Counted from the first letter of the stretch, positions 14,369 to 36,533 are shown. The stretch is 64,000 bases of DNA from Geoalkalibacter subterraneus (GCF_000827125.1 NZ_CP010311.1:1984001-2048000); one strand, 5' to 3'. Notes: generated from the letters alone by a model not told the origin. Program-made: numbers and translations.

Positions 14369-14686
14369 GACAGGGTCTCCAAGGGCAAAGGACGAACCCT
14401 TTATACCCCATCGGAGAACAAATGACCAGAACTTTATGCTGGGGCAAGGCTTAGAGCGTGTTCCCGGGAGGGAACAAATTCGCCCTGCCCGGACACAGTG
14501 CTGACGCATGAAGCGATGACCCGCGCCTGTGCTCAACGCCTCGGCGGGAAATTTGAGGCGTAATGCTGTCCGAATGACCCCAGAGACATCTGCCCCAGGG
14601 TGGGCGGAGCTTCTCACGTGCTGTTTCCCCTGATTCAGGGCGTACCTACCCCTTCGCCTGCGGCGATAGGTGTGGTTGACCCTCTT

Positions 14687-16216: not shown

Positions 16217-16234
16217 GGCGCCACCCCCTGCCTG

Positions 16235-17119: not shown

Positions 17120-17158
17120 GGCGCAGCCTCCTGGGTGAAATCACAGTCATGCCACGCT

Positions 17159-17187
17159 ACCTTAGCGAAAAGCCGAAGCGTTGTCTA
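17159..17187 (-). promoter_or_regulatory. Internal promoter of the two-gene IS (copy 1; repeated +2782 and +5564)
   Basis: On the minus strand TAGACA (17182-17187) and TAAGGT (17159-17164) are 17 bp apart, 40 bp upstream of the DruA-like start. Identical sites lie in copies 2 (19941-19969) and 3 (22723-22751). Confidence 0.55.
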
Positions 17188-17253
17188 GGGTTGTTTTGCG
17201 ACAAAATATTTTAGAGTCCCCCCGGAGTAGCGCTGTTTATCGGCGTAGGGAAT

Positions 17254-17294
17254 TTCATGCGTCAGCACTGTCCCGGACAGTGCTGACGCATGAA
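17254..17294. repeat. 41-bp perfect palindrome at IS copy 1/copy 2 junction
   Basis: Two 20-bp arms (17254-17273, 17275-17294) are perfect inverted copies around a single C. They arise because the abutting inverted repeats are separated by a spacer, TCCCGGA, that is itself palindromic. Confidence 0.95.
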
Positions 17295-17468
17295 GCGATG
17301 ACCCGCGCCTGTGCTCAACGCCTCGGCGGGAAATTTGAGGCGTAATGCTGTCCGAATGACCCCAGAGACATCTGCCCCAGGGTGGGCGGAGCTTCTCACG
17401 TGCTGTTTCCCCTGATTCAGGGCGTACCTACCCCTTCGCCTGCGGCGATAGGTGTGGTTGACCCTCTT

Positions 17469-18998
17469 TTATGTCAGCCGTAACTGGAAAGGGGCAGCAA
17501 TCTGCTCGCGGATCCACGCCTGATTGAGCCACGGACTCGCTATCGTTTCGCGTACCAAGCGGATCAATCCCCGCACCCCGGTCTCCCGAATGATTCTGGC
17601 GATCTTTTCCGAATACCTCGCCATGATGTTGAACATGTGCCCCAATTGCATCAGATAATGGAAACCCTTCATCGCGTTCCAATCATGGCTAAAACAGTGC
17701 TCGTATTGGTAGCCGTGGTGCTTCTCTACCAGGAAGCCTGTTTCGACCCCCCAGCGCGAGCGTGCGCCCAGATTGCACCGCTCGTGGAGGTTCCATCGGT
17801 CGAGGGGCTCACTCGATAGCCAGAGGTGCCGGCTGGTCTTTTCCACCACGTCGCACCCCTGGTTGCCAATCTCTTGCCAGCTCTCCAGACATTCGACGAC
17901 GTTTACGATCTCCCGCTTCCTGCCGTTCGCCCCGAAGCTGTACTCTATCCTGTTTGCCCATCTGAAACGCTGCTGCCTGCCGCCCCAGGTTTGAAAATGC
18001 CGGTTCTTCGGCTCAAGCCGTGCCAGGGCCTGAAATTCCTTCACCGTGCTCGGCAAGGCGTCGTCCTTCAGCACGATCATGTACTGCCATTTGTTCCGGC
18101 GGCACAGCTCCATGACTGGCCCGTTCGCATAGAGCCCGTCCAGCAACAACATGATCCGCAGCGCCGGAAACGCCTCTTTGAGCCTCGCAGCCAATCGATA
18201 AAAAGCTTTCAGCTCGCAGTCCTGCTTGCTCCTGTGCGAATCTCCTTGCGTATGGCACAGGAACTCGCTCATCAAGGGAATGCTCATCCCGCCGGAAAAG
18301 GCGAGATTCGCCTGCAGGACATAGACGTAGTACTGCGTCTGCTCCGCGCTCTGCCCTCTATTGAACGTGCGTTGCAGGCATTCTTCGTCCCAAAGCCAGC
18401 CGCGCGCCATCTTCTGCGTACCGTCTACCGCAACGGGATAGCAATTATTGACCAAGTATCGGGAAAACTTCTTGTTTCGTATCCACTTCCGGATCAATTC
18501 CAGCTGTACCGACGCGATCTGGTCCACCTCGATTTGTGACAATACCCTCTTGAGGGTGTCATGGTGGGGGGTCTCTTCGAGTTCGGGAAACAGGGCCTTC
18601 AGGTTCTCCCAGAGCATCGGACGGCTCATTTCCCTGGTCACCTCCCGCGAGGATGCCATCTGCAGCACGAACGACAGAATTCCCAACATCAGCAGCACGG
18701 ATAGCTTGTGCTTGGTCTTCTTCGCGGTTCTCGGATCCGGTATCGCCGACAATCGCCTCAAAAGCACCGGCAACTGGCCGCGAAACACCTTGAGCTGCTC
18801 CCAGGCCGCCTCGTTGCGGGCAAGACCCTCCTCCTCCACGCTTTTATAGCCGCTCTTGCGGTTGGCGATCGTGGCGTGGGAGGCCCTCTTCAACCCCTCT
18901 TCTTCCTGCTTGCGTCCGAGTTCCTTCTGCGCGCGTTTTCTCTGCCTTGCCTTCGCCTTGATCTCTTCGCGGTTCGCACGGCGGCTCGCTTTGCCCAT
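17469..18998 (-). CDS. DDE transposase (copy 2)
   Basis: Its translation is identical to that of the transposase at 14687-16216: 509 residues with the same putative D192/D287/E419 triad. It shares the operon arrangement with its DruA-like partner. Confidence 0.85.
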   Translation of the reverse strand: MGKASRRANREEIKAKARQRKRAQKELGRKQEEEGLKRASHATIANRKSGYKSVEEEGLARNEAAWEQLKVFRGQLPVLLRRLSAIPDPRTAKKTKHKLSVLLMLGILSFVLQMASSREVTREMSRPMLWENLKALFPELEETPHHDTLKRVLSQIEVDQIASVQLELIRKWIRNKKFSRYLVNNCYPVAVDGTQKMARGWLWDEECLQRTFNRGQSAEQTQYYVYVLQANLAFSGGMSIPLMSEFLCHTQGDSHRSKQDCELKAFYRLAARLKEAFPALRIMLLLDGLYANGPVMELCRRNKWQYMIVLKDDALPSTVKEFQALARLEPKNRHFQTWGGRQQRFRWANRIEYSFGANGRKREIVNVVECLESWQEIGNQGCDVVEKTSRHLWLSSEPLDRWNLHERCNLGARSRWGVETGFLVEKHHGYQYEHCFSHDWNAMKGFHYLMQLGHMFNIMARYSEKIARIIRETGVRGLIRLVRETIASPWLNQAWIREQIAAPFQLRLT

Positions 18999-19016
18999 GG
19001 CGCCACCCCCTGCCTG

Positions 19017-19901
19017 CTACGAGCAAAGCGCGCCGCGGAAATCTCCCGCAAGCGGCTTCACGAAGATCTTCTTGGGGGTCGTGCTGTAGCTCTTTCCCCT
19101 GCGCGCCAGACCTTGGCCGGTCGTCATCCCCAGGTACTGCCAGTTCGCTGCCAGATAACAGGTCCCTGCATAAAGCTCAGGGTCCACGAACGTTTCCAAC
19201 AGCAGCGGCCGATATCCCCAACGTTTGTGCCAATCGTCCCCGATGCGCCTTGCCGCCTTCCCTAAGGTGTGGCTTGCCAGGTTTTTCACCTGTACCCAGG
19301 GAAACACCAGAAAACGGCTGTTGTTGATGACGAACCCCAGGTTCCTCAGTCGCTCATCCTTGCTCCAGCCGATAAAGCGATCCCGCTCCTGCAACGACTT
19401 CGCCGCGCCGCAAAACAGCAGACACCCCAAAAGCCCCCTCTCGCTCTCGATGAAGTAGCGTTGGAAACAGCCGATGGGAGGCGTGTACCCCAGGTAGTGA
19501 TAGCGGCTCACATACTCGTTCCATAGATCGGCCGCATCCTTGCTGTCCGCCCCTGCCAGCCGAACCGGTCCGATCTCTGCGACGCTGCCTTTTACCGCCG
19601 TGGTCGCCTCCGTTCTGCGCGTCGGCTTCGGCTGCTTCTTCAGCCCCGCTCCCGGGGCGATGGTCCGCTTCCGCGGAAGCTTCAGCAATCCCTGCTGTTC
19701 GAGCTTCTCCAGTAGCTTCAGGCAGGCATCCCTCTTCAAACTCCCCGAAGCGGTGCGCCAATCCAGGTGCTCACAAATGGTAAATGCCAGTTCGAATCGG
19801 CTCAATCCTGAACATGTCGAAACCGTTTCCTGAATCGCCTCCACTTCTTCAGGACCGATGGTTCTCCCGCAGTGAACCAGTTGCTTCCTCTCGTCTCTCA
19901 T
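19017..19901 (-). CDS. DruA-like DUF4338 protein carried by the IS (copy 2)
   Basis: Identical in translation to the copy at 16235-17119, with the same ribosome site and upstream promoter (19941-19969). It is first in the IS operon. Confidence 0.8.
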   Translation of the reverse strand: MRDERKQLVHCGRTIGPEEVEAIQETVSTCSGLSRFELAFTICEHLDWRTASGSLKRDACLKLLEKLEQQGLLKLPRKRTIAPGAGLKKQPKPTRRTEATTAVKGSVAEIGPVRLAGADSKDAADLWNEYVSRYHYLGYTPPIGCFQRYFIESERGLLGCLLFCGAAKSLQERDRFIGWSKDERLRNLGFVINNSRFLVFPWVQVKNLASHTLGKAARRIGDDWHKRWGYRPLLLETFVDPELYAGTCYLAANWQYLGMTTGQGLARRGKSYSTTPKKIFVKPLAGDFRGALCS

Positions 19902-20035
19902 GGCGCAGCCTCCTGGGTGAAATCACAGTCATGCCACGCTACCTTAGCGAAAAGCCGAAGCGTTGTCTAGGGTTGTTTTGCGACAAAATATTTTAGAGTC
20001 CCCCCGGAGTAGCGCTGTTTATCGGCGTAGGGAAT

Positions 20036-20076
20036 TTCATGCGTCAGCACTGTCCCGGACAGTGCTGACGCATGAA
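20036..20076. repeat. 41-bp perfect palindrome at IS copy 2/copy 3 junction
   Basis: Identical to the palindrome at 17254-17294: two 20-bp arms with a single central C spanning the right end of copy 2, spacer TCCCGGA and the left end of copy 3. Confidence 0.95.
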
Positions 20077-20250
20077 GCGATGACCCGCGCCTGTGCTCAA
20101 CGCCTCGGCGGGAAATTTGAGGCGTAATGCTGTCCGAATGACCCCAGAGACATCTGCCCCAGGGTGGGCGGAGCTTCTCACGTGCTGTTTCCCCTGATTC
20201 AGGGCGTACCTACCCCTTCGCCTGCGGCGATAGGTGTGGTTGACCCTCTT

Positions 20251-21780
20251 TTATGTCAGCCGTAACTGGAAAGGGGCAGCAATCTGCTCGCGGATCCACG
20301 CCTGATTGAGCCACGGACTCGCTATCGTTTCGCGTACCAAGCGGATCAATCCCCGCACCCCGGTCTCCCGAATGATTCTGGCGATCTTTTCCGAATACCT
20401 CGCCATGATGTTGAACATGTGCCCCAATTGCATCAGATAATGGAAACCCTTCATCGCGTTCCAATCATGGCTAAAACAGTGCTCGTATTGGTAGCCGTGG
20501 TGCTTCTCTACCAGGAAGCCTGTTTCGACCCCCCAGCGCGAGCGTGCGCCCAGATTGCACCGCTCGTGGAGGTTCCATCGGTCGAGGGGCTCACTCGATA
20601 GCCAGAGGTGCCGGCTGGTCTTTTCCACCACGTCGCACCCCTGGTTGCCAATCTCTTGCCAGCTCTCCAGACATTCGACGACGTTTACGATCTCCCGCTT
20701 CCTGCCGTTCGCCCCGAAGCTGTACTCTATCCTGTTTGCCCATCTGAAACGCTGCTGCCTGCCGCCCCAGGTTTGAAAATGCCGGTTCTTCGGCTCAAGC
20801 CGTGCCAGGGCCTGAAATTCCTTCACCGTGCTCGGCAAGGCGTCGTCCTTCAGCACGATCATGTACTGCCATTTGTTCCGGCGGCACAGCTCCATGACTG
20901 GCCCGTTCGCATAGAGCCCGTCCAGCAACAACATGATCCGCAGCGCCGGAAACGCCTCTTTGAGCCTCGCAGCCAATCGATAAAAAGCTTTCAGCTCGCA
21001 GTCCTGCTTGCTCCTGTGCGAATCTCCTTGCGTATGGCACAGGAACTCGCTCATCAAGGGAATGCTCATCCCGCCGGAAAAGGCGAGATTCGCCTGCAGG
21101 ACATAGACGTAGTACTGCGTCTGCTCCGCGCTCTGCCCTCTATTGAACGTGCGTTGCAGGCATTCTTCGTCCCAAAGCCAGCCGCGCGCCATCTTCTGCG
21201 TACCGTCTACCGCAACGGGATAGCAATTATTGACCAAGTATCGGGAAAACTTCTTGTTTCGTATCCACTTCCGGATCAATTCCAGCTGTACCGACGCGAT
21301 CTGGTCCACCTCGATTTGTGACAATACCCTCTTGAGGGTGTCATGGTGGGGGGTCTCTTCGAGTTCGGGAAACAGGGCCTTCAGGTTCTCCCAGAGCATC
21401 GGACGGCTCATTTCCCTGGTCACCTCCCGCGAGGATGCCATCTGCAGCACGAACGACAGAATTCCCAACATCAGCAGCACGGATAGCTTGTGCTTGGTCT
21501 TCTTCGCGGTTCTCGGATCCGGTATCGCCGACAATCGCCTCAAAAGCACCGGCAACTGGCCGCGAAACACCTTGAGCTGCTCCCAGGCCGCCTCGTTGCG
21601 GGCAAGACCCTCCTCCTCCACGCTTTTATAGCCGCTCTTGCGGTTGGCGATCGTGGCGTGGGAGGCCCTCTTCAACCCCTCTTCTTCCTGCTTGCGTCCG
21701 AGTTCCTTCTGCGCGCGTTTTCTCTGCCTTGCCTTCGCCTTGATCTCTTCGCGGTTCGCACGGCGGCTCGCTTTGCCCAT
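20251..21780 (-). CDS. DDE transposase (copy 3)
   Basis: Third identical copy of the 509-residue transposase described at 14687-16216. Confidence 0.85.
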   Translation of the reverse strand: MGKASRRANREEIKAKARQRKRAQKELGRKQEEEGLKRASHATIANRKSGYKSVEEEGLARNEAAWEQLKVFRGQLPVLLRRLSAIPDPRTAKKTKHKLSVLLMLGILSFVLQMASSREVTREMSRPMLWENLKALFPELEETPHHDTLKRVLSQIEVDQIASVQLELIRKWIRNKKFSRYLVNNCYPVAVDGTQKMARGWLWDEECLQRTFNRGQSAEQTQYYVYVLQANLAFSGGMSIPLMSEFLCHTQGDSHRSKQDCELKAFYRLAARLKEAFPALRIMLLLDGLYANGPVMELCRRNKWQYMIVLKDDALPSTVKEFQALARLEPKNRHFQTWGGRQQRFRWANRIEYSFGANGRKREIVNVVECLESWQEIGNQGCDVVEKTSRHLWLSSEPLDRWNLHERCNLGARSRWGVETGFLVEKHHGYQYEHCFSHDWNAMKGFHYLMQLGHMFNIMARYSEKIARIIRETGVRGLIRLVRETIASPWLNQAWIREQIAAPFQLRLT

Positions 21781-21798
21781 GGCGCCACCCCCTGCCTG

Positions 21799-22683
21799 CT
21801 ACGAGCAAAGCGCGCCGCGGAAATCTCCCGCAAGCGGCTTCACGAAGATCTTCTTGGGGGTCGTGCTGTAGCTCTTTCCCCTGCGCGCCAGACCTTGGCC
21901 GGTCGTCATCCCCAGGTACTGCCAGTTCGCTGCCAGATAACAGGTCCCTGCATAAAGCTCAGGGTCCACGAACGTTTCCAACAGCAGCGGCCGATATCCC
22001 CAACGTTTGTGCCAATCGTCCCCGATGCGCCTTGCCGCCTTCCCTAAGGTGTGGCTTGCCAGGTTTTTCACCTGTACCCAGGGAAACACCAGAAAACGGC
22101 TGTTGTTGATGACGAACCCCAGGTTCCTCAGTCGCTCATCCTTGCTCCAGCCGATAAAGCGATCCCGCTCCTGCAACGACTTCGCCGCGCCGCAAAACAG
22201 CAGACACCCCAAAAGCCCCCTCTCGCTCTCGATGAAGTAGCGTTGGAAACAGCCGATGGGAGGCGTGTACCCCAGGTAGTGATAGCGGCTCACATACTCG
22301 TTCCATAGATCGGCCGCATCCTTGCTGTCCGCCCCTGCCAGCCGAACCGGTCCGATCTCTGCGACGCTGCCTTTTACCGCCGTGGTCGCCTCCGTTCTGC
22401 GCGTCGGCTTCGGCTGCTTCTTCAGCCCCGCTCCCGGGGCGATGGTCCGCTTCCGCGGAAGCTTCAGCAATCCCTGCTGTTCGAGCTTCTCCAGTAGCTT
22501 CAGGCAGGCATCCCTCTTCAAACTCCCCGAAGCGGTGCGCCAATCCAGGTGCTCACAAATGGTAAATGCCAGTTCGAATCGGCTCAATCCTGAACATGTC
22601 GAAACCGTTTCCTGAATCGCCTCCACTTCTTCAGGACCGATGGTTCTCCCGCAGTGAACCAGTTGCTTCCTCTCGTCTCTCAT
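21799..22683 (-). CDS. DruA-like DUF4338 protein carried by the IS (copy 3)
   Basis: Third identical copy of the 294-residue DUF4338 protein described at 16235-17119. It lies nearest to ppsA, 295 bp from that gene's 3' end. Confidence 0.8.
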   Translation of the reverse strand: MRDERKQLVHCGRTIGPEEVEAIQETVSTCSGLSRFELAFTICEHLDWRTASGSLKRDACLKLLEKLEQQGLLKLPRKRTIAPGAGLKKQPKPTRRTEATTAVKGSVAEIGPVRLAGADSKDAADLWNEYVSRYHYLGYTPPIGCFQRYFIESERGLLGCLLFCGAAKSLQERDRFIGWSKDERLRNLGFVINNSRFLVFPWVQVKNLASHTLGKAARRIGDDWHKRWGYRPLLLETFVDPELYAGTCYLAANWQYLGMTTGQGLARRGKSYSTTPKKIFVKPLAGDFRGALCS

Positions 22684-22925
22684 GGCGCAGCCTCCTGGGT
22701 GAAATCACAGTCATGCCACGCTACCTTAGCGAAAAGCCGAAGCGTTGTCTAGGGTTGTTTTGCGACAAAATATTTTAGAGTCCCCCCGGAGTAGCGCTGT
22801 TTATCGGCGTAGGGAATTTCATGCGTCAGCACTGCCTTTTACTGAACCACAGGATAGTCGTCTTCAGTGCCACAATACGTCACATTGGCGCCGGAAAGGA
22901 TTCTGATCAAGGCAAATAGCCATGT

Positions 22926-22977: not shown

Positions 22978-25365
22978 TTACAACCGTTTTTCTACTTCGG
23001 CCACCCGCCGGATCACTCCGATCACGCTGTCAGGATTCAGCGAAATTGAATCGATCCCCTCCTCAACCAGAAACGCGGCGAAATCGGGGTAGTCGCTTGG
23101 CGCCTGACCGCAGATGCCGATCTTGGTGCCGGTCTTGTTGGCGGCCCGGATCGCCTGGGCGATGGTTTTTTTCACGGCTTCATCACGCTCGTCGAACACC
23201 TCCTTGAGCACCGCGCTGTCGCGGTCGACGCCGAGAGTGAGCTGGGTCAGGTCGTTGGAACCGATGGAGAAGCCGTCGAAACGCTCGGCAAACTGCTCGG
23301 CCAGCACCACGTTGGAGGGGATCTCCACCATCACATAAACCTCGAGCCCCTTCTGCCCGCGCACCAGCCCCTCTTCGGCCATGACTTCAAGAACCCGGTC
23401 GGCCTCCTTGAGCGTGCGGCAGAAGGGAATCATCACAACCACGTTGCCAAGGCCGATCTTTTCGCGCACCCGCCTGATCGCGGCGCATTCGAGTGCAAAT
23501 CCGGCGCGGTAATGTTCGCTGTAGTAGCGCGATGCGCCCCGGAAGCCGAGCATCGGGTTCTCTTCGGAAAACTCGAACTGGCGCCCGCCGATGAGATCGG
23601 CGTACTCATTGGTCTTGAAGTCGCTCATGCGCACAATGACCGGATCGGGATACTGGCTCGCCGCAATCATCGCGATCCCCTGGGCGAGCTGGTCGATGAA
23701 ATACTCGCTCTTGTCGTCATAGTGACGGGTCAGCTCGCGAATCTGTCGTTTTGCGTCCTTGTCTTCCAGCTCATCGTATTTCAGCAATGCCATGGGATGA
23801 GCCTTGATCTGGTTGTTGATGATGAATTCCATCCGGGCCAGCCCGATCCCCCGGCAGGGCAGACGCCACCAGCGCGATGCCGCTGCAGGGCTTGCAATAT
23901 TCATCATGATCTGAGTTTTGGTTTCAGGCAGATCGTCGAGGTTCACCTCCGTCTCCTCGTACTCGAGAATCCCTTCGTAGATCTTGCCCTGATCCCCCTC
24001 GGCGCACGACAGCGTCACCTCCTGCCCATCCTTGAGTTCGCCCGTGCCATGCTCAGTGCCGATGACCGCCGCGATCCCCAGCTCGCGGCTGACGATGGCG
24101 GCATGAGAGGTGCGGCCGCCATGATCGGTGATAATGCCGGCCGCTTTTTTCATGATCGGCACCCAGTCGGGGTCGGTCATCCCGGTGACCAGGATGTTGC
24201 CGTCCTCGAAGCGTTCAATTTCGCTTGCGCTCTTGATCACCTGCACTTTGCCCGCTGCGACCGACTCACCGATCGCCATGCCTGTGAGCAGTACCTCGCC
24301 CTTCTGTTTGAGGTGATAGCTTTTCAGGACGCCCGCTTCTTTGCGCGATTGCACCGTTTCAGGGCGTGCCTGAACGATGAACAGCTCTCCGCTGTCGCCG
24401 TCCTTGGCCCATTCCATATCCATCGGCGTGCCGTAATGGCGCTCGATGACCGCCGCCCAGCGCGCAAGCTGCAGGATTTCATCATCGGAGAGCACAAAGG
24501 AATGTCTCTCTCTGGCTGAAGTCTCGACATTGCGGGTGGTGTTGCCAGCGCCGCGCGCGTACACCATCTTCTTCTCTTTTCCGCCGATGGTTTTATTCAG
24601 AATCGGTCTCAGGGTCTTGTCCTGCAGCAGCGGCTTGAACACCGTGTAATTGTCCGGCGTCACCGATCCCTGCACGACGTTTTCTCCCAGACCCCAGGCT
24701 GCATCGATCACCACCACATCGGGGAAGCCGGTATCGGTATCGATAGAGAACATCACTCCCGCACCGGCCTTGTCCGAGCGCACCATCTTCTGTACCCCCA
24801 CCGACAAGGCCACCTGCATGTGATCGAAGCCCTTGTTTTCACGGTAGCTGATGGCGCGGTCGGTAAAGAGCGAAGCGTAGCATTTGCGGCAGGCGTCGAG
24901 CAGTTCTTCCTCTCCGGTGATGTTGAGAAAGGTTTCCTGCTGCCCGGCAAAGCTGGCATCGGGGAGGTCTTCAGCGGTCGCGCTACTGCGAACCGCCACA
25001 TCGACCTCCTCTTCGCCACTGCGTCGGCAGAGTTCCCGGTAGGCATCGCGTATGGCGATGGCAGTCTCATCAGGCCATTTTCCTCTTCTGATCATGCGGC
25101 GGATCGTATCGCCCGTCTTGTGCAGCGTCTTGTCGCCTTTACGGTATTCCTCAAGTCGCTGACGGATCTTTTCCTCCAGATTATTTTCTGTGATATAGCG
25201 ACGATAGGCATCCGCAGTGGTCGCAAATCCGTCAGGCACACAGATCCCCTCGGACTTGAGCGTCCTGATCATTTCGCCCAGGGAGGCGTTCTTGCCTCCG
25301 ACAAGGGCAACGTCTTTATTGTTGAGAGTTTCGAACCAGCGGATCGAATCGTTGCGCTTCGTCAT
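22978..25365 (-). CDS. ppsA: Phosphoenolpyruvate synthase
   Basis: It converts pyruvate and ATP to phosphoenolpyruvate, AMP and phosphate, for gluconeogenesis. The 795-residue protein has the full order: an N-terminal ATP-binding domain (LVGGKNASLGEMI; VAVRSSATAEDLPDASFAGQ near residue 125), the phosphohistidine domain (GGRTSHAAIVSRELGIAAVIG near residue 420), and a C-terminal PEP-binding barrel ending with FSIGSNDLTQLTLGVDRDS and GICGQAPSDYP. It is monocistronic and divergent from the N-ATPase operon. The IS array ends about 140 bp past its stop and does not touch it. Confidence 0.96.
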   Translation of the reverse strand: MTKRNDSIRWFETLNNKDVALVGGKNASLGEMIRTLKSEGICVPDGFATTADAYRRYITENNLEEKIRQRLEEYRKGDKTLHKTGDTIRRMIRRGKWPDETAIAIRDAYRELCRRSGEEEVDVAVRSSATAEDLPDASFAGQQETFLNITGEEELLDACRKCYASLFTDRAISYRENKGFDHMQVALSVGVQKMVRSDKAGAGVMFSIDTDTGFPDVVVIDAAWGLGENVVQGSVTPDNYTVFKPLLQDKTLRPILNKTIGGKEKKMVYARGAGNTTRNVETSARERHSFVLSDDEILQLARWAAVIERHYGTPMDMEWAKDGDSGELFIVQARPETVQSRKEAGVLKSYHLKQKGEVLLTGMAIGESVAAGKVQVIKSASEIERFEDGNILVTGMTDPDWVPIMKKAAGIITDHGGRTSHAAIVSRELGIAAVIGTEHGTGELKDGQEVTLSCAEGDQGKIYEGILEYEETEVNLDDLPETKTQIMMNIASPAAASRWWRLPCRGIGLARMEFIINNQIKAHPMALLKYDELEDKDAKRQIRELTRHYDDKSEYFIDQLAQGIAMIAASQYPDPVIVRMSDFKTNEYADLIGGRQFEFSEENPMLGFRGASRYYSEHYRAGFALECAAIRRVREKIGLGNVVVMIPFCRTLKEADRVLEVMAEEGLVRGQKGLEVYVMVEIPSNVVLAEQFAERFDGFSIGSNDLTQLTLGVDRDSAVLKEVFDERDEAVKKTIAQAIRAANKTGTKIGICGQAPSDYPDFAAFLVEEGIDSISLNPDSVIGVIRRVAEVEKRL

Positions 25366-25541: not shown

Positions 25542-27424
<1,883 letters not shown>

Positions 27425-27453
27425 ACCTTCCAACATAAATCAGGACAGAGATT

Positions 27454-27813
27454 TTGACTGAAGAGAAGAAAAACAGCGACCCCCACGAGGAGTTCCGGCG
27501 CAAGGTCAAAGAAACACAGAAGCGCAAGCTGCGCGCCCGGAGCCAGGGGGATCAGGGCGTATGGTTCGGGCTTGGCATGTTCGGGCTGGTGGGCTGGTCG
27601 GTGACGATCCCGGCCCTGATTGCCATCGCCGTAGGGGTCTGGATCGACGCCCGCTTCAAGAGTCAGTATTCGTGGACCCTGATGATGCTGGTTATCGGCA
27701 TCGGCGTCGGATGTTTCAACGCCTGGTACTGGATCTCCCGCGAGCGACAGAGCATCGAAGATCAATTTACCCATGATCAGAAAGAACCACCCAGGCAGGA
27801 AAAAAAGAAATGA
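27454..27813 (+). CDS. atpQ: N-ATPase subunit AtpQ (AtpI/AtpZ-like membrane protein)
   Basis: A 119-residue protein with a basic, charged N-terminus (EEFRRKVKETQKRKLRARSQ) and two membrane segments (WFGLGMFGLVGWSVTIPALIAIAVG and WTLMMLVIGIGVGCFNAWYW). It corresponds to the AtpQ/AtpI-like gene of N-ATPase operons, probably an assembly factor for the c ring. The start is TTG behind AGGACAG. It overlaps atpR by 4 bp. Confidence 0.85.
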   Translation: MTEEKKNSDPHEEFRRKVKETQKRKLRARSQGDQGVWFGLGMFGLVGWSVTIPALIAIAVGVWIDARFKSQYSWTLMMLVIGIGVGCFNAWYWISRERQSIEDQFTHDQKEPPRQEKKK

Positions 27814-28124
27814 AGATTGAATTGTGGCAACTGGCGGCCGCCCTTGCGGCGGGAAGCGCCATCGGCTTTTTCTATTTCGGCGGCCTGTGGCTGACAGTGA
27901 CGCGAATTCCCGTCAGCCGCAATCCGCACCTGCTGCTCATCGGTAGTTTCTTTCTGCGCCTAACCGTCACCCTGGCTGCTTTTTATGCCCTGGTTCCCTG
28001 GGGTTGGCAGGCCATGGCTGCCGCTCTGGTCGGTCTGCTGATGACCCGGCAGATACTGACCCGACTCAAGGGAAAGGCGACGGTGACGCGTAATGCGGGC
28101 TCTCAGGCAGCCGACAACTTTTAA
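27810..28124 (+). CDS. atpR: N-ATPase subunit AtpR
   Basis: AtpR is specific to N-ATPase operons: a small membrane protein with three predicted helices, proposed to contact the c ring during assembly or to carry charge near the ion path. This 104-residue protein shows the family style, with GSAIGFFYFGGLWLTVTRIP in the first helix region, then LLLIGSFFLRLTVTLAAFYAL with an arginine inside the second helix. Its position between atpQ and atpB is diagnostic. Confidence 0.88.
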   Translation: MKIELWQLAAALAAGSAIGFFYFGGLWLTVTRIPVSRNPHLLLIGSFFLRLTVTLAAFYALVPWGWQAMAAALVGLLMTRQILTRLKGKATVTRNAGSQAADNF

Positions 28125-28150
28125 ATCCTTCAATCTCGAGTCTTGATTTT

Positions 28151-28873
28151 ATGGAAATCACCCCGGATGCTTTCATTTACTGGCAGCATGGTTTTGCCAG
28201 GCTCAATTCCACCATTGTCGTGACCTGGCTCAATATGGTTCTGCTGGTCGGGGCCTCGGCGTTGGTGACCCTGCGCCTGACCTCCGGTGAAAAACTCGGA
28301 CGAGGCCAGAACCTGCTGGAAGTGGTGGTGAGCAACATCCGCCAACAAATCAGTGATATGGGACTTAAACCGGTCGATGAGTTCCTCCCCTTCATCGGCA
28401 CGCTCTTTCTTTTTATCCTGCTGCCGAACGTGCTCTCGGTGGTTCCCGGCTATCGCGCGCCAACGGGTTCACTGTCCACCACGGCCGCCCTGGCGATCTG
28501 CGTCTTTGTCGCTGTGCCGATCTGGGGCATCCGGCGTCGGGGGCTGATCGGCTACCTCAAACTCTATATCCAGCCCACCCCTTTCATGCTTCCATTCAAC
28601 CTCATGGGGGAGCTGTCACGCACTCTGGCCCTGGCAGTGCGCCTGTTCGGCAACATCATGAGCGGGGCCATGATTGCCGGCATTCTGCTGTCTCTCGCCC
28701 CCCTGTTCTTCCCCGTCCTGATGAATATCCTGGGTCTGATCACGGGGGTGATCCAGGCTTACATTTTTGCGGTTCTGGCTGCGGTTTACCTGGCAGCTGC
28801 CGCCCGGGCGCACCAGGACCAGGAAAAAAAGAGCGAGCAACAACAAGATAAAGGAGGATCATCCCATGGATAG
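28151..28873 (+). CDS. atpB: N-ATPase Fo subunit a
   Basis: The stator subunit that forms the ion half-channels. The 240-residue protein is hydrophobic with about five membrane helices. The essential arginine sits in SRTLALAVRLFGNIMSGAMI near residues 156-175, and the last helix is GVIQAYIFAVLAAVYLAAA. The C-terminal tail is charged (HQDQEKKSEQQQDKGGSS). It overlaps atpE by 8 bp. Confidence 0.95.
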   Translation: MEITPDAFIYWQHGFARLNSTIVVTWLNMVLLVGASALVTLRLTSGEKLGRGQNLLEVVVSNIRQQISDMGLKPVDEFLPFIGTLFLFILLPNVLSVVPGYRAPTGSLSTTAALAICVFVAVPIWGIRRRGLIGYLKLYIQPTPFMLPFNLMGELSRTLALAVRLFGNIMSGAMIAGILLSLAPLFFPVLMNILGLITGVIQAYIFAVLAAVYLAAAARAHQDQEKKSEQQQDKGGSSHG

Positions 28874-29147
28874 TCTTGGTTGGGTCGCAGTCGCCTCCAT
28901 CATCAGCAGCGGCTTGTGTATCGGAATCGGCGCCATCGGCCCCGCGCTCGGTGAAGGGCGTGCTCTTGCTCAGGCGCTCCAGGCCATGGCGCAGCAGCCC
29001 GATGAAACCAACACCATCACCCGCACCCTGTTCGTCGGCCTGGCGATGGTCGAATCGACAGCGATCTATGCATTTGTGGTGTCGATGATTCTGATCTTCG
29101 CCAATCCATTCTGGAACCATTTCCTGGAACAGGCCGGCGGAGGCTGA
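28866..29147 (+). CDS. atpE: N-ATPase Fo subunit c
   Basis: The rotor-ring subunit. I use ATG 28866 (AAAGGAGG 9 nt upstream), giving 93 residues in a two-helix hairpin; the open frame extends 33 codons upstream but overlaps atpB. Helix 1 carries GAIGPALGEGRALAQAL with Glu30, and helix 2 carries MVESTAIYAF with Glu63-Ser64-Thr65. The second carboxylate at position 30, where sodium-type F-ATPases have Gln, is the two-carboxylate signature of N-type c subunits. Ion preference (Na+ or H+) cannot be settled from sequence. Confidence 0.95.
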   Translation: MDSLGWVAVASIISSGLCIGIGAIGPALGEGRALAQALQAMAQQPDETNTITRTLFVGLAMVESTAIYAFVVSMILIFANPFWNHFLEQAGGG

Positions 29148-29148
29148 A

Positions 29149-30000
29149 ATGCTCATCAACTGGTTTACGGTTGTCGCGCAGATCGTCAACTTTCTCATCC
29201 TTGTTTTTCTGCTCAAGCGGTTTCTTTACAAGCCGATTGTCAAGCACATGAACGAGCGGGAGGAGAGGATCGCCGCCCGGCTGCAGGAAGCTTCGGAAAT
29301 GCGCGCCGAGGCCCAGCAGCAGATCGACGAGTTCCGTGAAAAGCAGGAAGAAATGGAGGAGCAGAGTCGGCAAAAGCTGGAAGAAGCAGAAAATGAGGCC
29401 CAGTTACGGCGGCAGGAACTCCTAGAACAGGCACGCGACCAGGTCCAAAGCAAGCGTCAGAGCTGGCTTCAGTCCCTGGAGAAAGAAAAGGAAGATTTTG
29501 CGCGCGGCCTGAAAAAACGCTCCGCCCAGGAAATTCTGCACTTTGTTCAGCGGGTTCTGCAGGACCTGGCTGATGAACCTCTGAACAACCGGCTGGCTGA
29601 AGTCCTGCTGGCACGGATGAAAAAACTCGACGATGAGGTTAAACAGAGACTTTCAAAGGCCGCCGAGGAAGGTGAAATCGAGGTTCGGTCCACCTTCGAA
29701 CTCGATACCTCCATGAAGGACAAGATCACAGCCGCTTTACGCGAATTCTATGAAAAAGACGCCGAGGTCGCTTACAAGGTAGATCACGAACAACCCCTGG
29801 GAGTCGAGGCAAATGCCGGCAGTGTTAAATTCTCTTGGAGCATCGCAGGCTACCTGGATGAACTTGAGAGCCAGGTACTGACCCTGTTCGAAGAAAAAAG
29901 TCAGCGAGAAAGCGACGAAAAAGAGGGAAAAGAGAAAACCACCGGCAATCAAGGCAACTCTGACAAGAACAATTCTCCCCAGCAACAGGGAAATGAATGA
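29149..30000 (+). CDS. atpF: N-ATPase Fo subunit b with delta-like C-terminal region
   Basis: The peripheral stalk. A single N-terminal membrane helix ([21 protein letters not shown]) is followed by a long coiled coil (about residues 40-125). At 283 residues it is much longer than the usual b (~160). The extra C-terminal region (about 120-265, including [22 protein letters not shown]) is typical of N-ATPases, which have no separate delta gene. No atpH is present in this operon. The C-terminus is a low-complexity charged tail. It starts 2 bp after atpE and overlaps atpA by 8 bp. Confidence 0.92.
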
Positions 30001-31558
30001 TCCTATGACTGATAAACCATCCCAGTCAGACCAGTGGCTGGATGACATATTCTCGACTCTGGAGCAGAGTCTCGATAATTTTTCGCCGCGTCTGGAACCT
30101 CGTATCGTCGGTCGGATAAGTTATGTGGGCAAAGGCATTGCCCGCGTGCGGGGCCTGGCAGGCGTCCAGGGCGAAGAACTCCTGTCATTCCCCGGCAACG
30201 CGCTTGGGCTGGCCTTCAATATCAACGTCCGCGAAATCGGCGTCGTCATGCTTGACGATTACGATCACCTGGGCGCGGGAGACGAGGTCCACCGCACCGG
30301 CCGTGTCCTCGATGTCCCGGTGGGGGAAGAGCTGATCGGCCGCGTGGTCGATCCCAGCGGCCGGGTCCGCGACAGCAAGGGTCCACTGCGCTTTCGCGAA
30401 CGACGTGCAGTGGAGCGGCCCGCCCCTGAAATCATGGACCGGGCCCCCGTGACTGTACCACTGATGACAGGCCTCAAGGCAATCGATGCGTTGATTCCCA
30501 TTGGACGCGGGCAGCGCGAGTTGATCCTCGGAGACCGCCAGACAGGAAAAACAGCCATCGCCATCGATACGATCATCAACCAGAAAGGCAAGGGGGTGCT
30601 CTGTGTCTACTGCGCCATCGGCCAGCGCGCTTCGAGCGTTGCGCGAGTCATCGCAGACCTTGAGCAACGAGGTGCCATGGACTATACCACTGTCGTGACC
30701 GTTGAGGGCGATGATGCCCCGGGCCTGCGGTTCATTGCACCTTATGCCGCGACCACCATGGCGGAATATTTCATGGAGCAGGGCGAGGACGTGCTGGTCG
30801 TCTACGACGACCTCACCCATCACGCCCGGTCCTACCGCGAACTCTCACTGCTGTTGCGCCGCCCGCCCGGACGGGAAGCCTTCCCTGGCGACATATTCTA
30901 TATTCATTCGCGCCTGCTTGAACGCTCGACCCATCTGCGCGACGAACTCGGCGGCGGGTCACTGACCGCCCTACCCATCATTGAAACCGAGGCCCAGAAT
31001 ATCTCCGCCTACATCCCGACCAACCTGATTTCCATCACCGACGGCCAGATCTATCTGTCGCCAGGGTTGTTCCGCAAAGGCGTTCTGCCGCCCATCGATA
31101 TCGGCATGTCGGTTTCGCGGGTCGGCGGCAAAACCCAGTTTCCTGCTTATCGGGCAGTCGCCGGCGATCTGCGCCTGACCTATTCGCAATTCGAGGAGCT
31201 TGAAGCTTTCTCCCGCTTTGGAACCCGGCTCGACGAGGATACCCGCAAGACACTGGAAAGAGGAAAGCGGATACGCTCTGTCCTGAAACAGCCGCAGTAT
31301 GCCCCCCTTCCCGCCGCAGAGCAGATCATCGTACTGCTTGCCGTCAACGAGGGAATTTTCGACTCCGTTCCGGATGACAAGCTGATGGAGGCTGAGACCC
31401 TGATACGCGACGGGCTGCAGCACATCCTAAAAATTGCAGACAAAATCGAGAACGGAGAAAAACTCACCGATGAAGACCTCGCGACCCTGCGACAGACAGC
31501 CTCCGAGGCGATCGCCGATCTTGTGATAGATTCTGAGAACCACAGCGAGGCTGAATAA
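29993..31558 (+). CDS. atpA: N-ATPase F1 subunit alpha
   Basis: The nucleotide-binding, non-catalytic alpha subunit. The 521-residue protein has the Walker [21 protein letters not shown] near residue 175. The alpha-specific [22 protein letters not shown] segment near residue 370 includes the conserved Arg that completes the beta catalytic site. Length is normal. It overlaps the end of atpF by 8 bp, so the chosen start is translationally coupled. Confidence 0.96.
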
Positions 31559-31579
31559 CGCCGCTGCCAGGGAGAGTGA

Positions 31580-32476
31580 TTGGACATGCAGACCCTTCAG
31601 GACATGGAACGCAAGCTCAAGAGCGCTGACGATCTGCATACCGTCGTGCGAACCATGAAATCTTTGGCGGCCGTGAGCATTCGCCAGTACGAGGACGCGA
31701 CCCGTTCCCTGGACCGGTATTTCGAGTCGGTGGAAATGGGACTCAGGGCGGCTTTGCGCACTCATCCGCTGGTAGGGAATCAGAAAGAACCGCATAAAAC
31801 CCTGATCATTGTCTTCGGATCGGATCAGGGTATGGCCGGCCGCTTTAACGAAGCGATTGTTGAATTCGTACAGGCCGCCCGCCATGAAATGAAAATCAAG
31901 GATGATCGCCTGCTGACCTGGGTGATCGGTGCCAAAGCCCATGGTCTGATGGAAGATACGATCGGTAAAGTCAACCAGTTTTTCTCCCTTCCTCCCTCGG
32001 CCGAAGGCATCTCACCCAAAGTCCAGCAGATCCTTCTGCTTCTCGCTGAAATTCGCAAAAAGCATGGGGAACTTCGACTGATTCTGTTTCATAATCATCC
32101 TGCCGGGGGATCGTCCTATACCCAGCATCGGGTCAATCTGCTGCCGCCTGATCAAAAGTGGCTTAAGGATCTTGGCGGCCGGCAATGGGTTGACCGTCAG
32201 ATCCCTCTCTACACCCTGCCCTGGGAGGAGCTGTTCGGCGCATTGATCGGCGAATACCTTTTTGTCGCCTTTTTTCGTGCCTTCGCATCATCAATGGCCG
32301 CTGAAAATGCCGCCCGCCTGGCGTCAATGCAGAGAGCCGAAAAAAATATCGAAGAGACCAAGGAAGAACTGACCCGGACCTTTCACACCCTGCGCCAGAA
32401 TACGATCTCCGAAGAACTCTTTGATGTTATTTCCGGGTTCGAGGCCTTGAGCGAAACTTCAGAAGATTCGAGGTGA
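31580..32476 (+). CDS. atpG: N-ATPase F1 subunit gamma
   Basis: The central rotor shaft. The 298-residue protein shows N- and C-terminal helices that pair into a coiled coil (DMERKLKSADDLHTVVRTMKSL at the start; AENAARLASMQRAEKNIEET near 240-265) around a Rossmann-like middle part (TLIIVFGSDQGMAGRFN). It is divergent from standard gamma but typical for N-ATPases. The start is TTG 31580 behind GGGAGAG; ATG 31586 (MQTLQDM) is an alternative. It is the last gene of the operon. Confidence 0.9.
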   Translation: MDMQTLQDMERKLKSADDLHTVVRTMKSLAAVSIRQYEDATRSLDRYFESVEMGLRAALRTHPLVGNQKEPHKTLIIVFGSDQGMAGRFNEAIVEFVQAARHEMKIKDDRLLTWVIGAKAHGLMEDTIGKVNQFFSLPPSAEGISPKVQQILLLLAEIRKKHGELRLILFHNHPAGGSSYTQHRVNLLPPDQKWLKDLGGRQWVDRQIPLYTLPWEELFGALIGEYLFVAFFRAFASSMAAENAARLASMQRAEKNIEETKEELTRTFHTLRQNTISEELFDVISGFEALSETSEDSR

Positions 32477-32532
32477 ATGCTTCCATCCAATCTATCGATA
32501 TCATCATGGAAAATCGCAACAGGAAGGATACC

Positions 32533-34125
32533 ATGAACAGTAATCGTCCTATTATCTCTGCCAGTCAGTTTGACGCCGTCATTTTCGATATGGACGGTGT
32601 TGTCACCCAAACCGCCCATGTTCATGCCGCCGCCTGGAAAAAGATGTTCGACAGCTATCTGCAGCAGCGCTCCGAGCGCACCGGAGAGCAGTACGAGCCG
32701 TTCAGTGTCGAAGCGGACTACACCCGTTACGTCGACGGCAAGCCCCGCTATGACGGTGTGCGCGATTTCCTCAAATCGCGGGGAATTGAATTACCTGAGG
32801 GCGAATCAGGGGACGGCCCCGAAAAAGAGACCATTTGCGGCCTGGGCAATCGCAAAAACAGCTTTTTCCAGGAAGTCCTTGAAGAACAGGGGGCTCAGCG
32901 GTACGAGACCACTGTCGAGCTGATTGAGAAGCTAAAACGGGCCGGCATCAAGACGGCCATCATATCTGCTAGTAAAAACGCCCGCAAGGTTCTCAAGGCG
33001 GCCAACGCACATGACCTGTTCGATGCTCGGGTGGACGGCCTCGACGCGGAGGAAATGGGACTGCCCGGCAAACCGGCGCCGGATGTTTTTGTTGCCGCAG
33101 CCGAAAAGCTCGGCGCCGCGCCTGCACGTTCAGTGGTGGTTGAAGACTCCCAATCGGGGGTGCAGGCTGGACGGGCTGGCGGTTTCGGGCTGGTCATCGG
33201 CGTCGACCGCTCCAATCAGCGAGAGGAGCTGGCCCGCTATGCCGATGTGGTTGTCGAGGATCTGGCGGAAGTGAAAGTAGAAAAAAACAACCAGAGCTCC
33301 GAAAAAACAACCGACGATCTCCCCTGCGCCCTCGATCGTTTTAATGACGTGACCTGCCGTCTCAAAAACAGGCAGCCGGCGGTCTTCCTCGACTATGACG
33401 GGACCCTCACTCCCATCGTTGATCGCCCTGAAGATGCGGTCATCACCGAAGAGATGCGCCAGACGGTGCAGGATCTCGCCGATTATTGCACCGTCGCCAT
33501 CGTCAGCGGCCGCGACCGCCGCGACGTGGAGCAGCTCGCCGGCGTCAAGCGGATTCATTATGCCGGAAGTCACGGGTTCGACATTGCCGACCCTGAGGGC
33601 CGAACCATGGAAAACCGCCAGGGCGAAGCCTTTCTGCCGGCCCTGGATCAGGCGGAAAAAGCTCTGCATGAGCGCCTCGATTCCCTTGAAGGCGCACAGG
33701 TGGAACGCAAAAAATTCGCCATCGCCGTCCATTTCCGGCGTGTGCCTGAATCACAGCATGCCCAGGTTGAACAGGCGGTGGACGAGGTGCTGGCGCAGAG
33801 CAAAGACCTGCGCAAAACCGGCGGCAAGATGATCCACGAGCTGCGCCCCGACATCGACTGGGATAAAGGTCGTGCGCTGCGCTGGCTGCTCGAAAAGCTC
33901 AATCTGAACCGCCGCGATGTGGTGCCGATCTACATCGGCGACGACCTCACTGATGAAGACGCGCTGCGCGAGATCGAGCAACAGGGGATCGGCATCCTGG
34001 TACGGGACGAGGAAGCGCGCCCCACCCATGCCCGCTACGCCCTGGAAGATACCGCTGAAGTGCGCATCTTTCTGCGCAAGCTCCATGATTTTCTCGAAGA
34101 ACGCGAAGAAGAGGATGAAGAATAA
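32533..34125 (+). CDS. Fused beta-phosphoglucomutase / trehalose-6-phosphate phosphatase
   Basis: Two HAD-family enzymes in one 530-residue chain. The first half (to about residue 235) is a beta-phosphoglucomutase-type HAD: nucleophile motif FDMDGVV, the family insert YVDGKPRYDGVRDFL, TICGLGNRKNSFF, and motif IV VVVEDSQSGVQAG. The second half (about 265-525) is an OtsB-type phosphatase: FLDYDGTLTPIV, VSGRDRRDVEQL, and IYIGDDLTDEDALR. I chose ATG 32533 because AGGAAGGA precedes it; a GTG at 32473 overlapping atpG is possible. It overlaps the GH65 phosphorylase gene by 1 bp, pointing to one pathway interconverting glucose-6-P, beta-glucose-1-P and trehalose(-6-P). Confidence 0.88.
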   Translation: MNSNRPIISASQFDAVIFDMDGVVTQTAHVHAAAWKKMFDSYLQQRSERTGEQYEPFSVEADYTRYVDGKPRYDGVRDFLKSRGIELPEGESGDGPEKETICGLGNRKNSFFQEVLEEQGAQRYETTVELIEKLKRAGIKTAIISASKNARKVLKAANAHDLFDARVDGLDAEEMGLPGKPAPDVFVAAAEKLGAAPARSVVVEDSQSGVQAGRAGGFGLVIGVDRSNQREELARYADVVVEDLAEVKVEKNNQSSEKTTDDLPCALDRFNDVTCRLKNRQPAVFLDYDGTLTPIVDRPEDAVITEEMRQTVQDLADYCTVAIVSGRDRRDVEQLAGVKRIHYAGSHGFDIADPEGRTMENRQGEAFLPALDQAEKALHERLDSLEGAQVERKKFAIAVHFRRVPESQHAQVEQAVDEVLAQSKDLRKTGGKMIHELRPDIDWDKGRALRWLLEKLNLNRRDVVPIYIGDDLTDEDALREIEQQGIGILVRDEEARPTHARYALEDTAEVRIFLRKLHDFLEEREEEDEE

Positions 34126-36533
34126 TGAACAGCTGGTCCCTGATCTACGAAGATTTCGATCCGGAACAGGAGAAGCTGCGAGAAGCCCTCTGCACCCTGG
34201 GCAACGGGTATTTCTGCACCCGGGGGGCCGCGCCGGAGTCTCAAGACGACGGCGTGCATTACCCCGGCACCTATCTGGCGGGAGGCTACAACCGACTCAA
34301 CACCGACATTGCCGGCCGGACCATTGAAAACGAAGACCTGGTCAACCTGCCCAACTGGCTGCCGCTGTCCTTTCGTCCGGACGGCGGCGAGTGGCTGGAC
34401 CTGGACCGGGTTGAAATACTCGATTTCCGTCAACAGCTTCACCTCAGGATCGGTGTCCTGCGCCGCAAAATCCGCTTCAAAGATTCTGAGGGGCGCCTCA
34501 CCTTTCTCGATCAACGCCGCTTCGTCCACATGGGGCATCGCCACCTGGCGGCCATGGAAACGACCCTGCGGCCGGAAAACTGGTCCGGAACCCTGGAAAT
34601 CCGCAGCGCACTGGACGGTCGCGTCATCAACAACAACGTCCCCCGCTATCGCGACCTGGCCAGCCGGCATCTGGAGCCGGTCGGAACGGAGCAGATCAAC
34701 CAGGAAACGATCTATCTCAAATCACGCACCCGCCAGTCGAGGATCGAGATCGCCCTAGCCGCACGAACCCGTTACGAAGTCGGCGGCGAAGCGCAGAAAC
34801 AGGCGCGCCACCTGGAACGAACCGACGACTATATCAGCCAGCTGATCCGGCTCGACGTAAAACAGGGTCAGCAGATCCGCATTGAGAAAACGGTGAGCCT
34901 GTTCACCTCGCGCGATGAAGCGATATCCGAATGCGGACTCGATGCCTGCAAGGCCATTTCGCGCGCACCGGGATTCAATGAACTGCTTGAGGAACATACC
35001 ATGCGCTGGCAGCACCTCTGGCGTCGTTACGGCATGGATCTCGAAGAGGATGACAGCGAAAAAGGCGCCCGCAACAAGATGATCCTGCGGCTGCATATCT
35101 TCCATCTGCTGCAGACCGTCAGCATGCAGACCATCAAGCTCGATGTCGGTGTTCCGTCCCGTGGATGGCACGGCGAAGCCTATCGGGGCCATATTTTCTG
35201 GGACGAACTGTTTATCTTTCCCCTGCTTAACCTGCGCACTCCGGAGATTACGCGGACCCTGCTCAACTACCGCTACCGGCGGCTCAACGAAGCACGCGCT
35301 GCCGCGCAGGCAGCGGGATACGCCGGCGCCATGTATCCCTGGCAAAGCGGCAGCGATGGTCGCGAAGAGAGCCAGAAGGTTCATCTCAACCCGAAATCGG
35401 ACAACTGGATCCCCGATAATTCTCGCCTGCAGCGTCATGTCAACTCAGCCATCGCCTGGAATGCCTGGCAGTATTACCAGGCCACCGGAGACCTGGAATT
35501 TCTCTGCTTCTACGGCGCGGAGATGATCCTGGAGATCGCCCGCTTCTGGGCCAGCCTCGCCACCTGGAGTGAAGAGCATCAACGCTATGAAATCCTCGGC
35601 GTCATGGGGCCCGACGAATACCATGACGCGTACCCCGACAGTGACAAACCGGGACTCGACAACAACGCCTACACTAACGTTATGGCGGTGTGGGTCTTTA
35701 TCTGCGCCCTTAAAGTGCTCGACACCCTGCCCCGCGATCGGCACCGGGAATTGACCGAAGGTCTCGATCTGCAGGATGAAGAAATCAGAAAATGGGATCA
35801 TATCAGCCGCAGAATGCGTCTGGTTTTTCACGACGACGGCATTATCAGCCAGTTTGAAGGATACGACCAGCTCGAGGAATTCGACTGGCAGAGCTATCAG
35901 GAGAAATACGGCAGGGTCATGCGTCTTGATCGAATTCTCGAAGCGGAGAACGACACGCCCAATCGCTATAAATGCTCCAAGCAGGGCGATGTCCTCATGC
36001 TTTTCTATCTCTTCTCCGCCGACGAGTTGGGCGAGATCTTCGAACGACTCGGCTACCCCTTTGAATATGAGACTATTCCCAAAAATATTGACTATTACCT
36101 GCAGCGCACCTCTCATGGCTCGACCCTCAGCCAAGTCGTTCACTCCTGGGTTCTCACCCGTTCGGATCGCGCCGAAAGCTGGGATCTCTACACCATGGCC
36201 CTGCGTTCCGACATCGACGACATCCAGGGGGGCACCACCCCAGAAGGCATTCACCTTGGCGCCATGGCCGGCACCGTGGACCTGATCCAGCGGGCCTATA
36301 CCGGCATCGAGACACGCGGAGAAGTGCTGCGGCTCAACCCCTGTCTGCCGAAGGAGATCAAAAGCCTGTGCCTGAGATTGCGCTACCGGGGCCAATCCCT
36401 CGATTTGTCGATCACTCCGAAGAAAATGACTCTGCAATGTCATGAGTGCCGTGTCGAGCCGATCAAGGTTGCTTACTGCGAGGATGAACGGCGACTCTGC
36501 GGTGGAGAAAAAGTTGAATTTGATCTGAAATGA
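34125..36533 (+). CDS. Glycoside hydrolase family 65 disaccharide phosphorylase
   Basis: An 802-residue GH65 enzyme of the inverting maltose/trehalose/kojibiose/trehalose-6-P phosphorylase family, using phosphate to split (or beta-glucose-1-P to build) an alpha-disaccharide. The N-terminal beta-sandwich (LGNGYFCTRGAAPES) is followed by the (alpha/alpha)6 barrel with YRGHIFWDELFIFPLL near residue 350 and the general acid Glu498 in VMGPDEYHD. The C-terminal part has HGSTLSQVVHSW and the short jelly roll. Substrate cannot be fixed from sequence. Coupling to a trehalose phosphatase favours trehalose or trehalose-6-P. Start ATG overlaps the preceding TAA. Confidence 0.9.
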   Translation: MNSWSLIYEDFDPEQEKLREALCTLGNGYFCTRGAAPESQDDGVHYPGTYLAGGYNRLNTDIAGRTIENEDLVNLPNWLPLSFRPDGGEWLDLDRVEILDFRQQLHLRIGVLRRKIRFKDSEGRLTFLDQRRFVHMGHRHLAAMETTLRPENWSGTLEIRSALDGRVINNNVPRYRDLASRHLEPVGTEQINQETIYLKSRTRQSRIEIALAARTRYEVGGEAQKQARHLERTDDYISQLIRLDVKQGQQIRIEKTVSLFTSRDEAISECGLDACKAISRAPGFNELLEEHTMRWQHLWRRYGMDLEEDDSEKGARNKMILRLHIFHLLQTVSMQTIKLDVGVPSRGWHGEAYRGHIFWDELFIFPLLNLRTPEITRTLLNYRYRRLNEARAAAQAAGYAGAMYPWQSGSDGREESQKVHLNPKSDNWIPDNSRLQRHVNSAIAWNAWQYYQATGDLEFLCFYGAEMILEIARFWASLATWSEEHQRYEILGVMGPDEYHDAYPDSDKPGLDNNAYTNVMAVWVFICALKVLDTLPRDRHRELTEGLDLQDEEIRKWDHISRRMRLVFHDDGIISQFEGYDQLEEFDWQSYQEKYGRVMRLDRILEAENDTPNRYKCSKQGDVLMLFYLFSADELGEIFERLGYPFEYETIPKNIDYYLQRTSHGSTLSQVVHSWVLTRSDRAESWDLYTMALRSDIDDIQGGTTPEGIHLGAMAGTVDLIQRAYTGIETRGEVLRLNPCLPKEIKSLCLRLRYRGQSLDLSITPKKMTLQCHECRVEPIKVAYCEDERRLCGGEKVEFDLK

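Follow-up and report, generated by a model that had tools for sequence, protein, structure and literature searches.

Trehalose-6-phosphate (T6P) phosphorylase (T6PP), a member of glycoside hydrolase family GH65, is given in a 2025 review as a degradation route only. In vitro, the T6PP of Lactococcus lactis formed T6P from beta-glucose-1-phosphate and glucose-6-phosphate (G6P) in 93% yield (PMC13121652). Six specificity positions have been defined in GH65, reading DQGQDE in T6P phosphorylases (De Beul et al. 2021, PMC8537180), and a Caldithrix abyssi T6PP with this motif made T6P from the same two substrates (PMC8537180). T6P synthesis free of T6P synthase (TPS) has lately been assembled in vitro and described as new to nature, and a 2024 review states that the function of the 1327-aa OtsB1 of Mycobacterium tuberculosis is unknown (PMC11046441). 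Here we describe a two-gene cassette in a 64,000-nucleotide stretch of Geoalkalibacter subterraneus DNA (NZ_CP010311.1:1984001-2048000, the window), in which a beta-phosphoglucomutase (beta-PGM)–OtsB fusion gene overlaps the gene of a predicted GH65 T6PP. We hold the chances about level that these enzymes form a nucleotide-sugar-free route to the protective sugar trehalose, running parallel to OtsA in this host, turnover of OtsA-made T6P being the main rival. The features of the cassette, numbered from the first base of the window, are as follows.

32521..32527, + strand: probable ribosome-binding site AGGAAGG, 5 bases before ATG 32533 (read directly)
32533..34125, + strand: beta-PGM–trehalose-6-phosphate phosphatase (OtsB) fusion, 530 aa (open reading frame (ORF) call and profile domains)
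32572..33192, + strand: beta-PGM-like HAD domain (TIGR02009, 175 bits; PDB 8h5s, Rv3400, 226 bits; motif positions)
33370..34083, + strand: OtsB domain (TIGR00685, 200 bits; PDB 5gvx, OtsB2, 239 bits)
34125..36533, + strand: GH65 protein, 802 aa, predicted T6PP (ORF, domains and motif; its start shares 1 bp with the preceding stop)
35160..35162, + strand: phosphate-site Arg346 (aligned to CsKP K330)
35616..35618, + strand: general acid Glu498 (GPDE) of the GH65 protein (motif position; role according to PMC8626586)
36120..36125, + strand: phosphate-site Ser666-Thr667 (HGST; aligned to CsKP S631/S632)
36252..36254, + strand: phosphate-site His710 (aligned to CsKP H675)

The GH65 protein holds all three Pfam domains (PF03636, PF03632 with 436 bits, and PF03633), corresponding to the N-terminal, catalytic and C-terminal domains, together with the general acid Glu. 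Its nearest solved structure is 9lb6/9lb7 (485 bits); kojibiose and maltose phosphorylase were rejected as assignments on their lower scores (345 and 207 bits, respectively) and different specificity motif. When the motif was read at CsKP positions 64/392/394/402/416/585, five of the six residues (D71, Q407, G409, Q417 and E608) agreed with DQGQDE in two independent alignments, while the remaining one (CsKP 416) depends on the alignment, being D431 in phmmer and W428 in MAFFT, which place a loop gap differently. The motif as read by MAFFT is common to 78 of 107 aligned sequences, and most of the others differ at one position. The GH65 phosphate site consists of a Lys, a His and two Ser, which the hydrolases of the family lose (PMC8626586); we infer that the lysine and histidine in question correspond to CsKP K330 and H675. 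In the window protein the site is occupied by R346, H710, S666 and T667, a pattern common to 9lb6, with conservative Lys-to-Arg and Ser-to-Thr changes that keep the basic and hydroxyl character. The position of the hydrolase general base Glu616 of FjGH65A falls at the non-acidic I700/Q701, as judged by spacing, the FjGH65A alignment stopping short of this region. Since the phosphate-site residues lost by family hydrolases are kept, we read the protein as a phosphorylase, and by its sequence it looks like a T6PP; the assignment made in the initial annotation is thus supported by a T6P-acting nearest structure as well as by the motif. PDB 9lb6 was deposited as 'Trehalose-6-phosphate hydrolase' yet has the T6PP motif and phosphate site, and its name may deserve checking. 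An AlphaFold model of the GH65 protein (mean predicted local distance difference test score 69, active-site loops below 50) was not used.

In the fusion, the mutase domain exceeds the TIGR02009 cut-off of 153 bits and stays under that of the stricter TIGR01990 equivalog (113.7 versus 189.4 bits). Its motifs FDMDGVV, TAHVHA, GKPRYDG, SASKN, GKPAPD and VEDSQSG agree with those of the L. lactis and M. tuberculosis beta-PGMs, and the DxD nucleophile/acid-base, cap His/Arg, SASKN, GKPxPD and ED elements are all there. The OtsB domain lies well above the TIGR00685 equivalog cut-off of 68 bits, with LDYDGTL and GDDLTDED (DxDGT and GDDxTDE) intact. The profile scores and intact catalytic motifs therefore bear out the two HAD enzymes in one fusion that had been proposed initially, and both ORFs and their claimed 1-bp overlap are equally real: the fusion stop TAA (34123-34125) and the GH65 ATG (34125-34127), read directly, share base 34125. 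For the fusion start, ATG 32533, with AGGAAGG ahead and a 530-aa product, is preferred over an upstream GTG at 32473, which overlaps the stop codon of ATPase gamma. No inverted repeats were found in a scan of the sequence, and promoter and terminator scans gave only chance-level sites.

The same three enzymes recur elsewhere. We have classified 104 GH65 loci by their linked mutase and OtsB: a mutase–OtsB fusion adjoins GH65 in 52, all three domains form a single chain in 11, OtsB is otherwise linked or fused in 10, and 16 carry a mutase–GH65 chain without OtsB; the remaining loci have no linked OtsB in the stretch read. Hosts belong to the Desulfobacterota, Pseudomonadota, Actinomycetota, Nitrospirota, Bacteroidota and Planctomycetota, with one archaeal metagenome-assembled genome (MAG). 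The single-chain form accounts for 4 changes on the tree, at least two of them forced by supported branches. Because of the profile scores and the recurrence of this arrangement in dozens of unrelated genomes, the cassette cannot be a product of chance. It is a split form of an OtsB1-type protein, a known, database-annotated but uncharacterised kind; the single HAD–OtsB–GH65 chain of OtsB1 is represented in the window by two overlapping genes. The three-enzyme unit proposed at the outset is therefore recurrent, often fused and in some genomes found without OtsA, while not being unique to this locus. Among the OtsB-less mutase–GH65 chains, three (L064, L068 and L078, in G331, G334 and G341) are in genomes with neither GT20, the family of OtsA, nor OtsB. 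A substitute phosphatase was sought beside such chains, and one HAD-IIB gene was found, in Nitrobacter, with no relative in 80 loci. On plasmid 2 of Nitrobacter hamburgensis (L149:5239-10392), the mutase–GH65 chain is accompanied by glucokinase, the HAD-IIB hydrolase, glycosidase, acetate kinase and phosphoketolase genes.

The basis in hand for the three-enzyme unit thus consists of domains, motifs, genomic linkage and co-occurrence, from which its catalytic activities and in vivo direction are inferred, the direction of GH65 from its linkage and from the lack of alternatives. In the proposed route, the beta-PGM domain would interconvert G6P and beta-glucose-1-phosphate, and the GH65 T6PP would work in reverse, joining beta-glucose-1-phosphate to G6P to give T6P and inorganic phosphate (Pi). 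The OtsB domain would then cleave T6P irreversibly to trehalose and Pi, pulling the sequence forward. The net reaction, 2 G6P + H2O -> trehalose + 2 Pi, would need neither UDP- nor ADP-glucose, and we compute about −16 kJ/mol for it using textbook hydrolysis energies. The linkage to OtsB fits a T6P-making GH65, since OtsB would compete with a phosphorylase that degrades T6P.

The host genome (G000; 3.7 Mb, 99.99% complete) was checked for other trehalose enzymes. It contains an intact 472-aa OtsA (GT20), TreS (908 bits) and TreY (933 bits); TreZ was not searched. The GT20 protein scores 9 bits below the OtsA equivalog cut-off and is nearest to mycobacterial OtsA; a role as glucosylglycerol-phosphate synthase was rejected, with a profile score of 360 bits against 556 for OtsA. 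The description of the pathway as OtsA-independent, for which absence of otsA, treS and treYZ was to be looked for, therefore fails here as a claim of necessity, and of the two observations that the initial annotation had named together as refuting it, an intact otsA and no change in trehalose, the first is made here. Parallel T6P synthesis by the unit stays compatible with this gene content, and the unit would act beside OtsA, TreS and TreY. As the only OtsB in the genome, the OtsB domain of the window must also serve OtsA. The fusion is the only beta-PGM homologue as well. A second GH65 gene, trehalose-phosphorylase-like (TR..., SAY loop), is located at L022:6789-9260 (C1, about 3.452 Mb) with no adjacent beta-PGM; the same type has its own beta-PGM neighbour in other genomes.

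Stronger support for the mechanism comes from other genomes than from G. subterraneus itself. Of 297 genomes drawn evenly from the phylum, 120 had GT20 over the cut-off, 126 had OtsB and 18 had the window type of GH65 (as fragments in two cases). Every one of these 18 also has OtsB, compared with 126/297 overall (Fisher p 9e-8, shared ancestry ignored), and GH65 is present in 6/10 genomes having OtsB without GT20 versus 12/116 having both (p 5.5e-4, again with shared ancestry ignored); those six are spread over five families. A second sample of 74 genomes was picked since almost all carry this GH65. GT20 is missing in 18 of them, and 15 of these 18 have exactly one OtsB, including the closed genome G214 as well as Kineobactrum, Marinobacter and Vreelandella isolates. 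In the longer stretches read, this single OtsB is the mutase fusion beside GH65, with OtsB motifs in every case but Kineobactrum, whose first motif was unmatched by the search pattern; in G214 and G262 the fusion was seen in their shorter loci. A trehalose phosphotransferase system (PTS), considered as another T6P source, was over the cut-off in none of the 15, and in three MAGs (G315, G337 and G339) TreS and TreY are also below cut-off. With neither T6P synthase nor T6P import in the 15 genomes, the one known source of T6P that remains for OtsB is T6PP in reverse. Besides, 22 GT20-bearing genomes have two OtsB genes; therefore, the OtsB of the unit is often not the only partner of OtsA. In G249, G291, G154 and G311, diverged GT20 matches of about 120 bits occur as two pieces in 583-611-aa frames, possibly a different subfamily.

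Several points weigh against synthesis by the unit. GT20 absence in MAGs may reflect incompleteness, nothing in G. subterraneus requires such synthesis given its OtsA, TreS and TreY, and the OtsB-less, GT20-less genomes with a mutase–GH65 chain (G331, G334 and G341) are explained by no model here. In addition, T6PP is known physiologically as a catabolic enzyme (PMC12125463), and M. tuberculosis OtsB1 was reported to lack T6P phosphatase activity, its deletion giving no obvious phenotype (PMC11046441).

The alternative that survives best is that the unit is a valve for T6P turnover, where OtsA makes T6P, the OtsB domain is its phosphatase, GH65 phosphorolyses surplus T6P and beta-PGM returns beta-glucose-1-phosphate to G6P, so that trehalose is balanced against glycolysis. 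The intact OtsA and sole OtsB of the host suit such a valve, as do the GT20 genes in 11 of 11 GH65-bearing genomes among the 20 nearest genomes and the catabolic working of T6PP in L. lactis, as cited in PMC12125463. We still think it unlikely, though well worth keeping in view: it leaves unexplained both the 15 genomes that have the OtsB of the unit with no GT20 and no trehalose PTS and the second OtsB in 22 genomes, and a purely catabolic unit would have little reason to fuse two competitors for T6P. Very doubtful, in our judgement, is a shared catabolic hub in which beta-PGM mainly serves the second GH65 in trehalose breakdown and its link to OtsB is incidental. The single beta-PGM homologue of the host speaks for it, as does that second GH65, which is nearest to maltose/kojibiose phosphorylases, has a specificity motif starting TR and the SAY loop given for trehalose phosphorylase (PMC8537180), and has a neighbouring beta-PGM of its own in other genomes; however, across phyla beta-PGM is found in fusion with OtsB and in linkage with the T6PP type of GH65, mostly with no second GH65 nearby. 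That the window GH65 instead hydrolyses T6P or takes another alpha-glucoside as its substrate, with no beta-glucose-1-phosphate made or used, is suggested by the deposited name of 9lb6/9lb7 but is quite improbable in view of the retained phosphate site (with its two conservative changes), the T6PP motif and phosphate site of 9lb6 itself, and the beta-PGM linkage, which implies beta-glucose-1-phosphate.

The nucleotide-sugar-free route is a plausible mechanism on this evidence. Two genes or gene groups precede the cassette in the window.

22978..25365, − strand: phosphoenolpyruvate (PEP) synthase-like gene (other phyla likewise have a PEP synthase close to this cassette)
25566..32476, + strand: codirectional upstream F-type ATPase operon similar to the Na+ N-ATPase type (gene reading)

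A gap of 56 bases separates the ATPase operon from the cassette start; it holds no convincing terminator, terminator-like sites there being at chance level, and co-transcription is possible. Genes for ATPase beta subunits with about 70% identity to that of the window are near mutase–GH65 chains in two other lineages (L082 and L098), and this proximity may thus be recurrent. Neighbours across 80 loci include P-type cation ATPase (17), PfkB kinase (11), PEP synthase (7), phosphoketolase (5) and aldolase (5), all raw counts, and several of these genes occur together in two Marinobacter isolates. On a Rhodococcus plasmid, the unit lies near universal stress, GAF, response-regulator and wax-ester-synthase genes, reminiscent of the mycobacterial DosR set. 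That the cassette acts when energy or oxygen is scarce is no more than a lead. Elsewhere in the window, 14495-22834 holds three head-to-tail copies of a 2782-bp unit encoding a 509-aa transposase-associated protein and a 294-aa DruA-like protein; the first two copies match at all 2782 bases, the third has 142 differences, and a fused-looking ORF at 13301-14617 is related to the repeat unit.

Should the trio make T6P in cells, a TPS-free route would already be natural, with no nucleotide sugar spent, and OtsB1-type proteins would gain a testable role. A wider proposal, offered tentatively and rated somewhat short of an even chance, is that T6PP is biosynthetic in nature, combining with beta-PGM and OtsB into a trehalose pathway free of nucleotide sugars in many phyla, with mycobacterial OtsB1 as the single-chain version, possibly for energy-poor or oxygen-limited conditions. 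The split genes let each activity be assayed separately, and trio genomes without standard T6P synthase make the synthesis idea testable.

Compared with known systems, the proposed route would share its last step, T6P to trehalose, with the OtsA–OtsB pathway and differ in the first, using beta-glucose-1-phosphate in place of UDP-glucose. The L. lactis TrePP and C. abyssi CaGP (EC 2.4.1.216) have the GH65 fold, specificity motif and phosphate site of the window protein, but characterised TrePP is catabolic and paired with a trehalose PTS, whereas here OtsB is linked and no trehalose PTS is over the cut-off. Among solved structures, those nearest to the N- and C-terminal halves of the fusion are M. 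tuberculosis Rv3400 beta-PGM and OtsB2, separate proteins in that organism and joined here; what comes before OtsB in the 5gvx alignment is just the C-terminal portion of a mutase-like region, while the mutase domain of the window is complete. The Rhodococcus plasmid 'otsB' encodes one 1211-aa chain of a partial mutase domain, OtsB (43%) and GH65 (54%) in the same domain order. M. tuberculosis OtsB1 (Rv2006, 1327 aa) has the same three domains in this order too. In contrast to such OtsB1-type proteins, the window has two overlapping genes and a complete mutase domain with its motifs intact.

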